64,000 nucleotides of DNA from Jiella avicenniae (GTDB taxonomy: Bacteria > Pseudomonadota > Alphaproteobacteria > Rhizobiales > Rhizobiaceae). The notes below the pieces were generated by a model. The model had not been told where the DNA came from. It saw only the letters and a list, made by a program, of their open reading frames with translations, and ran no database searches. This document shows, piece by piece, positions 46,355-54,555 of the stretch. The stretch spans positions 1 through 64,000 of the forward strand of contig NZ_JAJUWU010000001.1 of NCBI RefSeq assembly GCF_021390325.1, written 5' to 3'. Position numbers and translations under genes: made by a program. Every line of letters begins with the position of its first letter. The first letter of the stretch is position 1.

Positions 46355-46635
46355 CGACGAGCATCATCACCCAGCAGCTCGACGAGGCGCGGGACGATCC
46401 CAGGGCACGGGCGCGGCTGATCGCGTCCATGCCGTGGTGGTCGCTGATGGGCAACGAAACGCGGCAGTGGATCGGCGCGCACGGGACCATGGCCGAGCGC
46501 CAGTATCTCGCGAGCGTCAATTCGCTGCTCAGTTCCACCTGGCAGGTTCGACAGGCGTCGCTCGACGTCGTCGCCGCCAGCCTGCGGCAGCTTGCGGAGC
46601 AAGCCAATCCCATCATGACGGTGACGCCGTCATGA
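46351..46635 (+). CDS. phage protein of unknown function, 94 residues
   Basis: Helical protein with the segment MPWWSLMGNETRQWIGAHG. No family recognised. ATGA overlaps on both sides. Confidence 0.65.
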   Translation: MTTSIITQQLDEARDDPRARARLIASMPWWSLMGNETRQWIGAHGTMAERQYLASVNSLLSSTWQVRQASLDVVAASLRQLAEQANPIMTVTPS

Positions 46636-47066
46636 TCCGTCGGCGCGCGCCTCACGACCGGGACCGGCTGGCCTATCTCGTCGCCGCGGGCATCGCGGCG
46701 GAACTCTGCCGCGTCGAGGTCGACGACGTGATCGCCCGCGGCACGCCCGGCACGTTCCGCCGGCGGCGGGTGCGCACGGCGCGGGCGCTCGCCCTCTATC
46801 TCGCCCATACCGGCGCAAATCTTTCGATCGCCCGCGTGTCACGGGCGAGCGGGCGAACGAAACAGCGGGTGTCGTTTCTTTGCCACCTCATCGAGGACCG
46901 GCGCGACGAGCCGGCCTTCGAGGTGCTGGTCTCGCGGGCCGAGGGCTGGTTCCTGCTGCGCTTCGGCGCCGCGCCGATCGCGATGGTGGCGGCGATCGCC
47001 GGCGCCAGCCGCGACGCGGCGCTGGCGCGCTCGGCAGCCGTGTATCTGGCGGAAAGGGCGGCGTGA
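46632..47066 (+). CDS. phage protein with DnaA-domain-IV-like helix-turn-helix
   Basis: 144 residues. The segment RRVRTARALALYLAHTGANL followed by SIARVSRASGRTKQRVSFL resembles the DNA-binding domain IV of DnaA (RQIAMYLARELT-like helix, then a helix-turn-helix). Small proteins of this type are frequent in alphaproteobacterial phages and chromosomes and may bind DnaA boxes. It precedes the primase genes, which fits a replication or regulatory role. Confidence 0.65.
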   Translation: MIRRRAPHDRDRLAYLVAAGIAAELCRVEVDDVIARGTPGTFRRRRVRTARALALYLAHTGANLSIARVSRASGRTKQRVSFLCHLIEDRRDEPAFEVLVSRAEGWFLLRFGAAPIAMVAAIAGASRDAALARSAAVYLAERAA

Positions 47067-47362
47067 TGCTGGAGGAAACCTTCAGAGAGTTCGATGCCCG
47101 CACTCGCCCGCTTCATCCGGAAGAGCGGATGGCGAAGCTACGTGCGCGCAACGCGGTTGCTGAAAAGTTCTTGCGAACAAACCTGAAAGCAGGCGATCGC
47201 CTTCGAGCCACCAAAGCCGAGTGTTCTTCGCGCGAAGCCAGTTTCACCTTTTCCGGATGGGACGGCGGCTGGATCATGTCCAAAAGCGGCTGCTCGATCG
47301 CGCCGCTTTCCGTCTACAGCGTGAACGGCAAAGTCCTGCGTTTTCCGGTCGAGATCGCCTGA
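47066..47362 (+). CDS. phage protein of unknown function, 98 residues
   Basis: No family recognised. Charged N-terminal half, then FTFSGWDGGWIMSKSGC-type beta segment. It shares a base with both neighbours. Confidence 0.6.
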   Translation: MLEETFREFDARTRPLHPEERMAKLRARNAVAEKFLRTNLKAGDRLRATKAECSSREASFTFSGWDGGWIMSKSGCSIAPLSVYSVNGKVLRFPVEIA

Positions 47363-48474
47363 TGACCTCCGGCCCGACCTTCGAGGACATCCGCGCCGCG
47401 CTGGAAATGCGCATCGTCGAATTGTGCGAGCGGCTGGCGCCGGCGGAGGCCTACCGGGCGAATGGCGGGGCCTACTGGTTCGCGCTCAATCCGACGCGGG
47501 CGGACCGGCGGCCGGGCTCGTTCTGGATCAGGCTGAAGCCGCCGATCGGCGTCTGGTGCGACCATGCGACCGGCGAAGGCGGCGATCTCTTCAAGCTGAT
47601 CCAGTACATCGAGCGCCTGCCGGACTATGCGGCCGTGCGCGCCTGGTCGCTGGCCTTTCTCGGCTGGTCGAAAGACATGCCGAAGCCGACGGCGGCGAAG
47701 ATCGCCGCCGATCGGCGGCGGGCCGAAGCGCTGACGCAAAAGCGGGCGGCGCTGGGGGAGGCGAGCCTTGCCGACAACCGCCGGCGGGCGCTCGGCCTGT
47801 GGCTGACCGGCGAGCCGATGGGCGCCGAGATCCCGACGCTCGTCCGGCGCTATCTCGCCGGGCGCGGCATCGCCATCGACCGGCTGCCGAACGCGCTGCG
47901 GTTTCTGCCGTCGCACGACTACCGCCTCGCCGACGGCAGCCGGATCGCGCGGCCGTGCATCCCCGCGCTGATGACCGGGCCGGACGGCAAGCCGTGGGCG
48001 GTGCACCGGACCTGGCTCGAGCCGGACGGCTCGGCCAAGGCGGTGTTCCCCGACCCGGAGCGCAACAAGCCGCGCAAGATCTGGCCCGCCGGCTGGCAGG
48101 GCGCCGTCATCCGCCTGTCGAAGGGCGACAGCGGCGTCTCGCCGGAGGAGGCCGGACGCACCGGCGAGATCGGGCCGCTCGGCATCGTCGAGGGCTGGGA
48201 AGACGGGCTGCCGATCGTCATCGCCCGGCCGGACTTTCGCGTGTGGGCGGCGGGAACGCTCGGGAACATCGGGCACGTGCCGATGCTCGGCTGCATCGAG
48301 AGCGCGATCGTCTTCGCCGACAACGACTGGAACAACCCGCAGGCCGAGCGCTCGCTCGCCGACGGGCTTTCGAGACTGCGGGCGCCGCAATTCGGCATGG
48401 CGTCCCGCAGGGTGAGCGTCGCGCGGTCCTGGCGCGGCAAGGACGTCAACGATCTGCATAGAGGTGCAGCATGA
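47362..48474 (+). CDS. phage primase with Toprim-like domain
   Basis: 370 residues. The N-terminal part has the zinc-free primase look of DUF7146-type proteins (WFALNPTRADRRPGSFWIRL, then GVWCDHATGEGGDLFKLIQY). A Toprim-like core follows: GIVEGWEDGLPIVIA with the conserved E, and IVFADNDWNN with the DxD site near 316. It would make primers for phage replication together with the helicase gene downstream. ATGA joins it to both neighbours. Confidence 0.8.
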   Translation: MTSGPTFEDIRAALEMRIVELCERLAPAEAYRANGGAYWFALNPTRADRRPGSFWIRLKPPIGVWCDHATGEGGDLFKLIQYIERLPDYAAVRAWSLAFLGWSKDMPKPTAAKIAADRRRAEALTQKRAALGEASLADNRRRALGLWLTGEPMGAEIPTLVRRYLAGRGIAIDRLPNALRFLPSHDYRLADGSRIARPCIPALMTGPDGKPWAVHRTWLEPDGSAKAVFPDPERNKPRKIWPAGWQGAVIRLSKGDSGVSPEEAGRTGEIGPLGIVEGWEDGLPIVIARPDFRVWAAGTLGNIGHVPMLGCIESAIVFADNDWNNPQAERSLADGLSRLRAPQFGMASRRVSVARSWRGKDVNDLHRGAA

Positions 48475-49157: not shown

Positions 49158-51041
49158 GTGCCATCTCGCGGAGACGACGACTTTTTGCCCTCGGCCAATG
49201 CCGGTCTGGCCGACGTCAAGGCGATGATCGCCGACGCCGAGGACGAAGACGCGGCCTATGCGCTGGAGCTCGGCCGCGGCGACCCGTTGCCGGGGCAGAA
49301 GTTCGAAGGCGTCACGCCGGGCGAATGGGAGCCCGGCGACGACGGCCTGCCGGACAGTTGCCCGGTGCTGCCGCTCGGCACCGAGGAGGGCGTATTCCAT
49401 TTCATCGACGTCATCGGGCAGCTCAGGAGCTTCAAGGGCTCCGAACTCGGCCAGAGCGGCATCAACGAACTGTTCATGGGCCGGCATCTGTGGCTGCAAT
49501 GGGCCTGGCCGCAATACAACAAGGACAAAGCCATCGTCGGCTGGCGGGCGAACAAGGCCCGCGAGGACCTGATGGGCGCCTGCGGCCGGAAAGGCTCGTG
49601 GAACGCCATCGACCGGGTGCGCGGCCGCGGCGGCTGGACCGGCCGGGACGGGCGGCTGATGTTCCACGCCGGCAACCGGCTCGTCTCGCTCGGCCTCGCC
49701 GGCCAGGGCCGGGCGTCGTCGGGGCTGAAGAAGGAGGCGATCGGCGAACTCGACGGCATGGTCTATCCGACGCGGCCGCCGCTGCCGAAGCCCTGGCCGG
49801 TCAGCCTGATCGACCAGGACGGGCCGGCAACGGCGCTCTTGCCGCATTTCCAGACCTGGCACTGGATGCGCCCCGACCTCGATCCGGTGCTTCTGATCGG
49901 CTGGCTGGGCGCCGCCTATCTCGGCGCGGCGCTCCGGTGGCGCCCGGCGATCGTCATCATGGGCGACAAGGCGACCGGCAAGTCGAGCCTGCAGGAAGAC
50001 GTCAAGGCGATGTTCGGGCCGGCGCTGCTGCAGAGCGCGGACGCGACGGCCGCCGGCATCTATCAGCAGCTGAAGTTCGACTGCCTTCCGGTCGCCGTCG
50101 ACGAGTTCGAGGCGAAGGCCGACACGCGCAAGGCCAAGGCCGTGCTGGAGCTGATGCGGCTTTCGGCCTCGGGCGCGCCGATGCACCGCGGCGGCGACAA
50201 CCACAAGGGAACGCAGTTCCAGGGGCGCTCGGCCTTCGCCTTTTCGGCCATCAACATTCCGCCGCTCGACCCGCAGGACCTGTCACGCCTGGCGCTGCTT
50301 CGCCTGAAGCGGCTGCGCGAGGGCGAGGAGAAGCCGATCATCCCCGTCGAGGAGCTGGCGGTGCTCGGCCGCAAGATCATGCGCCGGCTGCTCGACAACT
50401 GGCACCGCTGGCCGGCCACCTATCAGGCCTGGCGGCGGTTCCTCGCCTCGTGCGGCCACGACGGCCGCGGCCAGGACACTTTCGGCACGCTGATGGCGCT
50501 CGCCGACATGATCGTCGACCGCGACGCCGGCAAGCTCAATCTCTGCCTCGCCGAGAACGCCGAAGACTACGAGCCCTGGCGCGAGGTGCTGTCGAGCCGC
50601 AACCTCATCGAATACGAGGGCATGTTCGAGAACTGGCAGAACTGCCTCAACCACGTCATGTCGAAGCGCATCGAGGCCTGGCGGGGCGGCACGCGCCACA
50701 CGGTCGGCGAGGTGCTGACCGAGTTCTTCGAGGCGGACGTCAACAATCAGGACGCCATCGGCTATCAGGGTGCGCGCAAGCTCCTGGAGCAGACGGGCCT
50801 GACCCTCCTCAGGCCGGGCGACGGCCGCGACGACTACGCGCTGTTCATCCCCAACCAGCACCCGGCGCTGTTCGAGCTGTTCGCCGGCTCGAAATGGCAG
50901 GGCGAGATGAACGCCGGCACGTGGATCGGCGCTCTCGACCAGGCACCGATGGCGCTCGTCGCCAGCGGCCGCATCGACGGGCGCAAGCATCGCGGCCGGG
51001 CGTTTCTGCTCAAGGACATCATCGCGGAGGTGGAGGGGTGA
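49158..51041 (+). CDS. phage P-loop replication protein (helicase/primase type)
   Basis: 627 residues. A P-loop NTPase core has GDKATGKSS (about 268-276) and a Walker B VDEFE. The arrangement resembles phage DUF5906/D5-like replication helicases. The N-terminal 200 residues carry LWLQWAWPQYNKDKAIVGW-like segments without known domain. The GTG at 49158 has no good ribosome-binding site; ATG 49224 is the next option. It is followed by the candidate origin after a short opposite-strand gene. Confidence 0.8.
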   Translation: MPSRGDDDFLPSANAGLADVKAMIADAEDEDAAYALELGRGDPLPGQKFEGVTPGEWEPGDDGLPDSCPVLPLGTEEGVFHFIDVIGQLRSFKGSELGQSGINELFMGRHLWLQWAWPQYNKDKAIVGWRANKAREDLMGACGRKGSWNAIDRVRGRGGWTGRDGRLMFHAGNRLVSLGLAGQGRASSGLKKEAIGELDGMVYPTRPPLPKPWPVSLIDQDGPATALLPHFQTWHWMRPDLDPVLLIGWLGAAYLGAALRWRPAIVIMGDKATGKSSLQEDVKAMFGPALLQSADATAAGIYQQLKFDCLPVAVDEFEAKADTRKAKAVLELMRLSASGAPMHRGGDNHKGTQFQGRSAFAFSAINIPPLDPQDLSRLALLRLKRLREGEEKPIIPVEELAVLGRKIMRRLLDNWHRWPATYQAWRRFLASCGHDGRGQDTFGTLMALADMIVDRDAGKLNLCLAENAEDYEPWREVLSSRNLIEYEGMFENWQNCLNHVMSKRIEAWRGGTRHTVGEVLTEFFEADVNNQDAIGYQGARKLLEQTGLTLLRPGDGRDDYALFIPNQHPALFELFAGSKWQGEMNAGTWIGALDQAPMALVASGRIDGRKHRGRAFLLKDIIAEVEG

Positions 51042-51370: not shown

Positions 51371-51608
51371 GCTAGCCGCAACGCGAGCCGGCGGCGAGAG
51401 CGCCGGTCCGGCGCGACGCCGGCGGCGGCGATGACGGGTATCAGATCGAGAAATCTTGCCGCGCGGTAGCGCGGCGCCGCTTGATCCCACGAGCCTCACG
51501 GATGACGATCACCCACACCCCGCAGCGCCGGAAACATGACGCCCGCACCCGCACCCATAGGTTTGCAGGGAAAGACCGCGGGCGTTTTGGCGGCGGTTTG
51601 GGGCAGGG

Positions 51609-51843
51609 TGGAACGGCTGGAACGCTCTGGAACGCGCGACCGTTCCAGCCAAGTGACTGAAACATAAGGCAGATTTCGAAAGTGGAACGCTGGAACGCCA
51701 GAATGCACATGGTCTCGCACGCGCGCGCGCGTACACGGGAAGTATGTATATATGCGTTCCAGCGTTCCAAGGGTAAGTTTTCATATAGAAAGCAAAGACT
51801 TAGCTGGAACACTCGCCGGTTCCACGGCGTTCCAGCCGTTCCA
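51609..51843. other. candidate phage replication origin with TGGAAC iterons
   Basis: TGGAAC occurs at 51609, 51618, 51628, 51683, 51691 and 51805; its complement GTTCCA at 51642, 51756, 51764, 51819, 51829 and 51838. Between them are an alternating purine-pyrimidine GC run (51717-51736) and a TA-rich alternating run (51742-51756). It sits in the 541-bp gap after the replication genes. The ORFs here look like by-products of the repeats. The rest of the gap (51371-51608 and 51844-51911) holds nothing recognised. Confidence 0.6.
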
Positions 51844-51911
51844 CTTTCGAGATTTTCCATCGCAATCAACGGCTTGGCCGTTCGCGGCAATAAAGAAAGG
51901 GGTGTCTAAGG

Positions 51912-52508
51912 ATGGCGACCGATCCAAAGCACGGTTTGAGCGGCGCGGTGGGACTGGATCTGGCTGCGCGGGGGCTGTCTGAAAAGGACGAGGCCGGCGA
52001 GGCGGTGCAGGACGACCTCTTCGCCGGGTCGAGCGTCTTCGGGACGCTGCAGGTCGGCGGCAAGCCGGTGACGCGGAGCGGGCCGGGGCGCCCGAAGGGA
52101 TCGCGCAACCGCTCGACGGCCGAGCTGGCGAAGCTGATCTCGACGACGGGCAGGCATCCGGTGCTGGCGATGGCCGAGATCGTCTCGACGCCGATCGACG
52201 TCATCGCCGCGACGCTCGGCTGCAAGCGGATCGAGGCGGCCGAGTATCACCGCAAGGTCATGGCGGACCTCGCGCCCTACGTGGCGCAGAAGATGCCGAC
52301 GGCCGTCCAGGTCGAGGGCGCGACGGCCGGGATGCTGACGATCGTCCAGCTCGGCCAGGCGACGGGTGGCGGAGGCCTCAGCGAGCACGGGCTGGCACTG
52401 ACGCTGGCCGGTGGCACCGGCGACGACGAGAGCGAGGAAAATCAGACACTTAGCGATGATGAGGCCGAGGTCTCACACGATGACGCCTCACACGGTGGCG
52501 ACAAGTGA
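51912..52508 (+). CDS. terminase small subunit candidate
   Basis: 198 residues, directly upstream of the terminase genes. A basic GRPKGSRNRST segment (about 57-67) is like the AT-hook-type tails or DNA-binding parts of small terminase subunits; then a helical core (AEIVSTPIDVIAATLGCKRI). The C-terminal tail is acidic. Assignment is by place and composition. Confidence 0.55.
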   Translation: MATDPKHGLSGAVGLDLAARGLSEKDEAGEAVQDDLFAGSSVFGTLQVGGKPVTRSGPGRPKGSRNRSTAELAKLISTTGRHPVLAMAEIVSTPIDVIAATLGCKRIEAAEYHRKVMADLAPYVAQKMPTAVQVEGATAGMLTIVQLGQATGGGGLSEHGLALTLAGGTGDDESEENQTLSDDEAEVSHDDASHGGDK

Positions 52509-53035
52509 CTGACGGCATTGACGAAACGGCCCTAGACCAGCTGATTGAGGATCATCGGGACGGCGCGGCGGCGGCGACCAGGCCGGCGCCCGGATCGGTC
52601 CGGAGGGGGGTGGTCTCGCCGGCGGCGGGCGGCGGCCGGGGGGTGCCCCCGAAACGCGGTTCCCTTCCCGGATCGGTGGACCGCTGTGCGGTTTTAGGCC
52701 GTCAAATCGGCCTGATTGGACAGACTGAAAAATCGAAAACGAGCGCTAGCGAGGAGGGGTCGGGGGTGAGGCCTGCCGCCAGCCGCCACAATGCCGGCGG
52801 CAAATTCGGCGCAAAGCATGTCGATGCCGACATGCGCGCGGAGATGACGATTTTCGATAGCCTGCCTGGCTCCTGCCGCGCGATCCTGGCGGACGCGCCG
52901 TTCAACTATGTGCCAAGTGCCATCGCAGCGCAACTGGCCAAGGGGCGGTCTGTGGAGGGCGTCTGCGCGACCATGCGCGCCAGCATCCGCGCCCATCTCG
53001 ACGCCGCTTATAAGAGCCGGGGGATCGCTCGATGA
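52505..53035 (+). CDS. phage protein, DUF6525-like C-terminus; start uncertain
   Basis: 176 residues from GTG 52505 (GTGA overlap with the gene upstream). Only the last 65 residues look like a folded domain (MRAEMTIFDSLPGSCRAIL; then SVEGVCATMRASIRAHLDA), similar to DUF6525. The first half is odd in composition and its DNA holds two hairpins, ACCGC/GCGGT then TTTT near 52679-52695 and AGGCCG/CGGCCT (52696-52713). A GTG at 52766 with GAGGAGG 8 nt upstream would give 89 residues and may be the true start. Confidence 0.5.
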   Translation: MTDGIDETALDQLIEDHRDGAAAATRPAPGSVRRGVVSPAAGGGRGVPPKRGSLPGSVDRCAVLGRQIGLIGQTEKSKTSASEEGSGVRPAASRHNAGGKFGAKHVDADMRAEMTIFDSLPGSCRAILADAPFNYVPSAIAAQLAKGRSVEGVCATMRASIRAHLDAAYKSRGIAR

Positions 53036-54555
53036 CGGCGGGGCTCGACGTCCGTACTTATACGCCGCCGGGTGACGTAGCCTCGCAGTTCCTGGCGAGC
53101 CGAGAAGCGGTCCGCTTCATCAAAGGTCCGATCGGATCGGGCAAGACGAACCTCGTCTTCTTCGACATGATCACCTGCGCGTCGCAAATGCCGAAATGCA
53201 GCTATGGCAGCAACGCCGGAAACCGCCTCTTCCGTGGCCTGATCCTGCGCGAAAACTACACCGACCTGTGGCGAACGACCATTCCATCGTGGTGGCAGTG
53301 GTTCCCGGAAGGCGTCGGCGACTGGAAAGGCTCACCGGGCCGCCAGGCCATCCACAAGCTGCGCTTCGAGATGCCCGACGGCGGGTTCCTGGTCTTCGAG
53401 ATCTGGTTCATGGCGATCGAGGACCACAAGGTCGAGGACGTGCTTCGCGGCATCGAGTTCACCATGGCCAACATGAACGAGGCCGACCGCCTGGCAGAGG
53501 ACGTGTTGACCTATCTCGTCGGCCGCGTCGTCCAGCGCCGTTTTCCGCCGAAGCGCTTCTTCGCCGAACGCGATCGCAACTACTTCGTCGGCGTCACGGG
53601 CGACCTCAACCCGCCGGACACGGATAGCTGGATCTACCAGACGTTCGAGGAGTTGCAGCCGTCCGGCCACAAGATGTTTCACCAACCGTCCGGCCTGTCG
53701 CCGCGCGGCGAAAACCGATCCGGCGTGACGCTGGCGGAATATCAGGAGATCGCGCGGCTCAATCAGCACCGGCCGTGGTGGGTCAAGCGCATGGTCGAGG
53801 GACGCTACGGGCCGTCCCGGGACGGAACGCCGTGCTTTCCCGAATATGACGACGACCGGCATTTCGCCGGCGACGAGCTGAAACCGCTTCCGGGCCTCGG
53901 CCTGCGGCTCGGCTTCGATCAGGGCGTCCGCGGTCCGGCGATGATCGTGGCGCAATGGACGCCGTCCGGCCAGCTTCGTGTCCTCGACGAACTCTATGTC
54001 GGCCGGATGGGGCCGACGCGTTTCGGCCATGAATGCCGGCTCCTCCTCGAAAGCCGCTACCAGGGTTTTTCCGTCGATTGGGCAACTTGCGACCCGGCTG
54101 GCCTGGCGGGGGCGGACACGGAAGGCGGGGACTATTCCTGGCATCAGATCATGGAGCGCGAGATGGGCATGCCGATCGCGGCCGCGCCCAGCCAGGAAAT
54201 CAAGCTTCGCCATGACGGCGTGTCGCAGCTGCTGCGCTATTCGATCGACGGTCGTCAACCGGCTCTGATCGTCTCGTCGCGGTGCAAGATGCTGCGCAAG
54301 GGGTTCAACTCGCATTACCGTTTCAAAGTGCGCAAGAACGGCGTCGAGACCAGCCTCGATCCGAAGCCGGAAAAGAACGAGTTTGCCGACGTCCACGACG
54401 CGCTGCAGTACCTGATCGAAGATCTGATGGGCATCGAAGGCATCACGCAGGGACTGCTGACGGGCATGGGGCACAATGGCGGTCCGCCGCTCGACGACGA
54501 CGAGGAGCGATCGAGCGTCACGCCGTCGACGGATTTCAACGTCTATGCCGTCTGA
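53032..54555 (+). CDS. terminase large subunit
   Basis: 507 residues. The ATPase domain has Walker A GPIGSGKT (32-39) and a Walker B-type region with acidic residues near MANMNEADR. The nuclease domain shows LGFDQGVRGPAMIV, ATCDPAG and FADVHDALQYL, supplying the acidic metal-binding residues. It translocates DNA into the prohead. The C-terminus carries GMGHNGGPPLDDD (about 478-490), a short motif seen in other alphaproteobacterial mobile-element proteins. Confidence 0.93.
   Translation: MTAGLDVRTYTPPGDVASQFLASREAVRFIKGPIGSGKTNLVFFDMITCASQMPKCSYGSNAGNRLFRGLILRENYTDLWRTTIPSWWQWFPEGVGDWKGSPGRQAIHKLRFEMPDGGFLVFEIWFMAIEDHKVEDVLRGIEFTMANMNEADRLAEDVLTYLVGRVVQRRFPPKRFFAERDRNYFVGVTGDLNPPDTDSWIYQTFEELQPSGHKMFHQPSGLSPRGENRSGVTLAEYQEIARLNQHRPWWVKRMVEGRYGPSRDGTPCFPEYDDDRHFAGDELKPLPGLGLRLGFDQGVRGPAMIVAQWTPSGQLRVLDELYVGRMGPTRFGHECRLLLESRYQGFSVDWATCDPAGLAGADTEGGDYSWHQIMEREMGMPIAAAPSQEIKLRHDGVSQLLRYSIDGRQPALIVSSRCKMLRKGFNSHYRFKVRKNGVETSLDPKPEKNEFADVHDALQYLIEDLMGIEGITQGLLTGMGHNGGPPLDDDEERSSVTPSTDFNVYAV

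Follow-up and report, generated by a model that had tools for sequence, protein, structure and literature searches.

A twelve-hexamer dyad with an alternating core as a candidate phage replication origin downstream of an MCM-like helicase gene

What is the role of a 237-bp segment in which one hexamer recurs twelve times, lying between the helicase gene and the terminase genes of a prophage? We address this question for a window of 64,000 nucleotides of Jiella avicenniae DNA (contig NZ_JAJUWU010000001.1), in which this segment (51608..51844, no strand assigned) is a proposed replication origin. Positions 51609–51843 hold six copies of TGGAAC and six of GTTCCA by exact count, as in the preliminary description (six direct and six inverted copies in 235 bp), out of a window total of 41. 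This is the densest cluster per 235 bp that any hexamer forms in the window; the mean for TGGAAC/GTTCCA is 0.151 copies per 235 bp, and the Poisson −log10 P for at least 12 is 18.6. The copies form one nested dyad with six sites per half—the outer arms (51608..51654 on the plus strand and 51798..51844 on the minus strand, four sites each) are 85% complementary and the inner arms (51683..51698 on the plus strand and 51754..51769 on the minus strand, two sites 8 bp apart in each) are 100% complementary, both pairs being centred on 51726. The 15-mer TGGAACGCTGGAACG is found in the host genome at this locus alone, once per strand, and among 398 genomes of the phylum none besides the window's own showed the TGGAAC layout, which is thus rare in chromosomes. 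A minus-strand open frame of 149 aa (51441–51890) spans the array, and the words WN and FQ recur in it; it is most likely a side effect of the hexamer repeats.

The dyad centre is also the middle of an alternating purine–pyrimidine run of 22 nt (51716..51737, no strand assigned), the longest such run in the window, which contains a pure (CG)6 at 51720–51731. A second alternating run, TA-rich and 16 nt long, follows at 51742..51757 (no strand assigned), and just one other alternating run in the window reaches 15 nt. Both had been noted before, as 20 bp of alternating GC and 15 bp of TA-rich sequence; the runs themselves stand, and their lengths and the composition of the first are corrected here.

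The first hexamer site lies 567 bp past the stop codon of an initiator-type helicase gene (49158..51041, plus strand; 627 aa), with Walker A at about residues 269–276 and Walker B at about 310–316, as read off an alignment. Upstream in the replication module is a Toprim primase-like protein (47299..48474, plus strand; PF13362 and PF23639 over cut-offs; phrog_510), which is separate from the helicase, unlike the fusion in P4 alpha. The first gene after the array is small-terminase-like (51912..52508, plus strand), a role assigned from its position; its product is without a Pfam match and resembles phrog_15261 (E 2.5e-4), a family without an assigned function. The large terminase subunit follows (53032..54555, plus strand; phrog_979, E 3.1e-7). 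A DnaA-like protein (46632–47066, 144 aa) had been put forward as a possible binder of the array. Its Pfam match to DnaA-C is weak (20.3 bits versus a cut-off of 31.5) and tblastn at E 1e-3 revealed no homologue in the other loci examined, some of which end short of that upstream distance; given this lack of homologues, the protein was dropped as a hexamer binder. The GC-skew switch proposed as a check was likewise absent at 51.7 kb in the 39.9–64 kb examined, where cumulative skew reached its maximum near 57.3 kb.

Conservation was assessed in a hexamer-blind set drawn from the helicase alignment, in which the best 79 of 165 relatives were kept and 78 were scanned for exact hexamers within 1.3 kb 3′ of the helicase gene, and a locus was counted if its 3′ sequence was 600 bp or longer (L007, which ends inside the gene, was not scanned, and L256 had less than 600 bp of 3′ sequence). 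Among these best relatives, a significant hexamer array was present 3′ of the gene in 56 of 77 loci, compared with 0 of 75 in the 5′ control. The exact-hexamer scan detected no array within 1.3 kb 3′ in the other 21 of the 77; the distance limit may account for some of these, because the arrays of L251 and L252 lie more than 1 kb from the helicase, and one candidate miss (L261) shares a contig with the array-bearing L140. An initial scan for TGGAAC, biased to that word, had found the same array 3′ of the helicase in close relatives among the matches listed. The layout pattern occurred in viral loci with TGGAAC (19) and with two other words (3 and 2), and in four of the five viral loci with these two words the array is 3′ of a helicase gene of the window's family and the matched stretch contains an alternating run. 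Twenty-one words scored best among the 56 arrays, some of them being the same site read with an offset; after alignment to one register, 44 arrays (L324 left out) show 14 different five-base cores, all starting with GT. TGGAAC as the conserved element was therefore ruled out by the hexamer-blind set and the two other words: of the conservation expected of the hexamers in related phages, the layout is kept, and the word itself changes in distant relatives.

The arrays of this set (45 distinct arrays from the best 79 of 165 relatives) have hexamer spacings that peak at 8–9, 11–12 and 40–57 bp. Together with the window, and counting exact sites only, the 46 arrays have six sites in 37 of 92 halves, more in 5 and fewer in 50; 10 of the 46 have six sites in both halves, and in 16 the site orientations of the two halves mirror each other over the length of the shorter one. 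Nine of 15 arrays from other phages, chosen for comparison and mostly from one phage group, are also six plus six. With the centre set at the array midpoint, 41 of the 45 distinct arrays from these best relatives had an alternating run of at least 12 nt within their central 120 bp, compared with 53 of 3,276 background windows. A fixed midpoint rule recovered an alternating core in 14 of 15 TGGAAC-type loci of the window's helicase family, the miss being L015, in which the array is lopsided. Choosing the dyad centre through strand symmetry instead was rejected; this placed it in the wrong gap in some loci (p < 0.05 in 25 of 45 mixed-kind loci). AT content is 42% at the window centre, and 42% in the central 60 bp across the family versus 35% for the loci; the feature conserved in the arrays of this helicase family is alternation, with central AT modestly raised.

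Arrays also accompany a different helicase. When loci were found by the VapE domain alone, 13 of 26 carried a hexamer array (score of at least 7.5) between 3 bp before and 88 bp after the stop codon, and none had an array of this score within the gene or in the available 5′ sequence. The genes concerned (L222, L226–L228, L231, L234, L236, L237, L241, L243–L245 and L247) encode VapE-like helicases from the same bacterial order, and the arrays that follow them use many words, including CTCTGA, AGGTGG and GCTACA. Ten of the 13 arrays have a centre richer in AT than their own locus, and 2 of the 13 have an alternating core (background, 11 of 335); the idea that such a core is common to all such origins was rejected on this VapE set.

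The position of the arrays admits another function. A terminase-like homologue lies 3′ of the array in 43 of the 45 (its profile match starts a median of 98 bp away, interquartile range 54–144.5), closer and with less variation than the helicase (median 282 bp, interquartile range 116–739), and two unrelated phage types have an array directly before a recognised TerS gene (the L016 group with phrog_4044, and L103 with phrog_57). The array could accordingly be a pac or cos packaging site that is bound by the small terminase, with the central tract cut to start packaging. We regard this as improbable: arrays also follow VapE helicases in a search that used only helicase domain and array, the Emticicia array in L203 is flanked by a DUF5906 protein and a DnaG-like protein, the mirror symmetry would suit a two-headed initiator better than one-way packaging, and the known origins of this type argue against packaging as the main role. 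A segment with two roles, serving as the origin and also in late-DNA packaging or late-operon control, seems unlikely, if less so; in those same 43 of 45 the array separates the replication genes from the late genes, and some contigs of a further group pair an array in front of TerS with another in front of an AEP primase (for example, L197 and L030, on one contig), but an origin, too, would be expected at a boundary between modules, and the second role has no direct support.

This further group, here group B, comprises IMG/VR contigs, several near 58 kb (L016, L028, L030, L076, L152, L155, L160, L162, L197 and others), with TGGAAC dyad arrays oriented --++-- in one half and ++--++ in the other. 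Several of them carry two arrays, of which one precedes TerS (phrog_4044) and the other an AEP-type primase (phrog_21866). Beside group B arrays, no helicase of the window's type was recognised.

Of the two proteins put forward as binders of the segment, the helicase upstream is the remaining candidate. Its sequence is isolated—the phage collection contained no close relative (20 records, every one below 60% identity), solved structures gave no significant match by sequence, and no Pfam family matched at E 0.01, hence not DUF927 either, so that the protein is described as working like the SaPI/Cch type and is not filed as DUF927. Profile comparison by hhalign gave a weak link to VapE/SF3 helicases around Walker A (probability 68%, 55 columns). 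The AF2 model (pLDDT 80.8) had SCCmec Cch as its best VIA match (5dgk; Z 16.4, rmsd 6.8, 428 residues aligned), followed by MCM proteins (Z up to 13.9), the SaPI5 primase-helicase (7om0; Z 13.8) and SaPIbov1 Rep (8tch; Z 12.9, rmsd 6.6 over 292 residues); in Foldseek alone, the helicases of NrS-1, ASFV and poxvirus came out on top. The model thus points to an MCM-like AAA+ protein of the Cch/SaPIbov1 Rep fold, its place inside the MCM-like fold being less certain (Z 13–14 for MCM proteins). The C-terminal domain (residues ~490–627; 50625..51038, plus strand) is read as a winged helix and is the proposed reader of the hexamers. Modelled separately, this part gave weak VIA matches to 2ipq (Z 5.0), residues 452–556 of 8tch, that is, the C terminus of SaPIbov1 Rep (Z 4.5), and 5vfy (Z 4.4); we take 2ipq and 5vfy to be winged helices. 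In another genome, a 169-aa open frame (L339) matches the helicase profile in the C-terminal domain alone (positions 500–616).

Co-variation between the proteins and the array points to one residue of this domain. Among 1,197 columns of helicase, TerS and TerL, helicase column 610 had the highest mutual-information z-score (14.3; 1.64 bits with base 4 of the hexamer); its codon is at 50985..50987 (plus strand), and the AF2 model places the residue at the turn of a predicted β-hairpin (600–617) with strands 600–606 and 609–617. Since the nearest rival, a TerL column, reached 13.3 (0.70 bits), these z-scores alone were indecisive and tree-aware counts were used. All 16 taxa with C at base 4 have lysine at 610, and none of the 29 with another base does (L324 was dropped, as its register could not be set). 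Across the 43 taxa with all three proteins, which leave out L278 and L312 (no TerS match), K610 agreed with C at base 4 in 43 of 43, the best TerL column came next with 41 of 43, and no TerS column was among the 12 best followers of the hexamer. The residue and the base changed on shared branches in 3 of 3 cases on the helicase-core tree and 4 of 4 on the TerL tree. Eight further taxa had been held out; seven of the eight on the tree obey the rule, all in the negative direction only (no C, no K), and the exception is L146, a very distant member that has C without K. Including these eight, the table holds 16 taxa with C and K, 36 with neither, 1 with C without K and 0 with K without C. Off the tree, L171 (K with C) obeys, and L336 (Q with C), whose array scores 6.1 and is below threshold, would be a second exception. 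Because independent base changes are few (three or four), the link is strong, not conclusive; it supports the helicase as the candidate binder named in the preliminary description, with its C-terminal domain as the proposed reader of the hexamers. That the column following the hexamer is in the helicase, and in neither TerS nor TerL, also speaks against the packaging reading.

A protein with a related C terminus is encoded on the same contig. The Bro-N protein at contig positions 71625–72533 (L341:934-1842), outside the window and about 20 kb downstream, has a Bro-N domain (PF02498, 2.2e-24) and a C-terminal part that matches the helicase C-terminal domain, so the array might be an operator for a phage regulator such as this one. 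By eye, however, the protein has S and not K at the position of residue 610, and by the K610 rule it should therefore read another hexamer; we consider the operator reading very improbable, and a role for the Bro-N protein as a competitor or regulator of the origin possible.

Taken as a phage replication origin, which we think it very probably is, the segment would have its hexamers read by the upstream helicase through K610, load two helicase hexamers and open at its core. The helicase C-terminal domain would recognize the hexamers, base pair 4 of GTTCCA being read through its wing residue K610, and the six sites of each half-array would gather one helicase hexamer. Six sites are the most frequent number per half and Cch-like helicases act as hexamers, from which we infer one hexamer per half. 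Two hexamers would then be built face to face, one on each half of the dyad, the alternating tract between them would be the first site of strand deformation and opening, and the separate Toprim primase, together with host factors, would start synthesis. The origin reading, for which the preliminary description had proposed an iteron-type origin, is well supported by position, architecture, conservation across relatives and helicase co-variation. Counting against it are the missing skew switch, the 21 of 77 relatives without an array, a helicase distance that varies while the terminase-like gene stays close, the group B arrays without a recognised helicase of the window's type beside them, the scarcity of alternating cores in VapE arrays, the exception L146 with few independent base changes, and the weak structural matches of the isolated C-terminal domain in a helicase with no significant solved relative by sequence. 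If it is true, a group of little-studied phages gains a predicted origin, a predicted initiator and a rule for base reading. The alternating core raises the question of whether left-handed or deformed DNA, and not AT-richness, can act as the opening element of an origin, and the six-plus-six layout would be a small bacterial model of two-headed loading of an MCM-like helicase, a central question of eukaryotic replication. Far more tentatively, and with somewhat less than even confidence, we suggest a large family of phage origins in which a Z-DNA-prone alternating tract replaces the AT-rich unwinding element, six plus six sites bring two MCM-like hexamers face to face, and specificity is rewritten through wing residues such as K610.

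Several known systems share parts of this arrangement. In Streptococcus phage O1205, the non-coding segment after ORF13, presumably an origin, has AGTAAC repeats around an AT-rich stretch right after a VapE-like gene; unlike in the window, the centre is AT-rich and both the hexamer and the helicase family are different. The P4 record annotates crr iterons, spaced by 9 and 43 bp, next to the 3′ end of the alpha gene; the ori/crr type I repeats resemble the window in having short iterons in both orientations, 9-bp pairs and a 43-bp spacing beside the 3′ end of a helicase gene; P4 differs in that alpha is annotated as a primase, the iteron is TGTTCACC and the crr sequence, by eye, has no long CG run. 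In plasmid pRN1 the origin is downstream of orf904, whose product is an SF3 helicase that ends in a C-terminal winged helix (PMC4234260), the same placement 3′ of a helicase gene as here, although with a stem-loop and no iterons. For SaPI Rep, a further paper describes a C-terminal domain that reads iterons directly downstream of its own gene, the same for SCCmec Cch2 with the iteron AAGTG, and proposes that the SaPI-type initiator binds as two hexamers (PMC7581432). The window resembles SaPIbov1 Rep and SCCmec Cch, which are self-loading initiators with origins downstream of their genes, in the fold of its helicase model (VIA Z 12.9 and 16.4, respectively), in the short repeats downstream, in the proposed C-terminal reader and in the proposed binding as two hexamers. 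It differs in its six-plus-six dyad, conserved alternating core and lack of a DUF927 match, and in belonging to a phage and not to a satellite or cassette. Given the resemblance of the model, we read the segment as working like a SaPI-type origin, in a variant with an alternating core. An earlier statement that no initiator was described for such a segment does not hold, as systems of the same kind appear in these sources (SaPI Rep and SCCmec Cch2 in PMC7581432, and the P4 type I repeats beside alpha); from the placement shared by SaPI Rep, Cch2, pRN1, P4 and O1205, as far as these sources go, the class of mechanism is already known. A literature search of mainly open-access work did not find the six-plus-six dyad, the alternating core or the reading residue, nor did this search return a paper on a phage origin with an alternating core or on the origin of the window's helicase family. 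Four seemingly chromosomal Gemmatimonadota contigs (L202, L207, L212 and L214) also carry TGGAAC arrays with 8-bp spacing and facing groups, the array of L202 beside a DMSO-reductase-like gene and that of L214 beside a phosphoglycerate-mutase-like gene.
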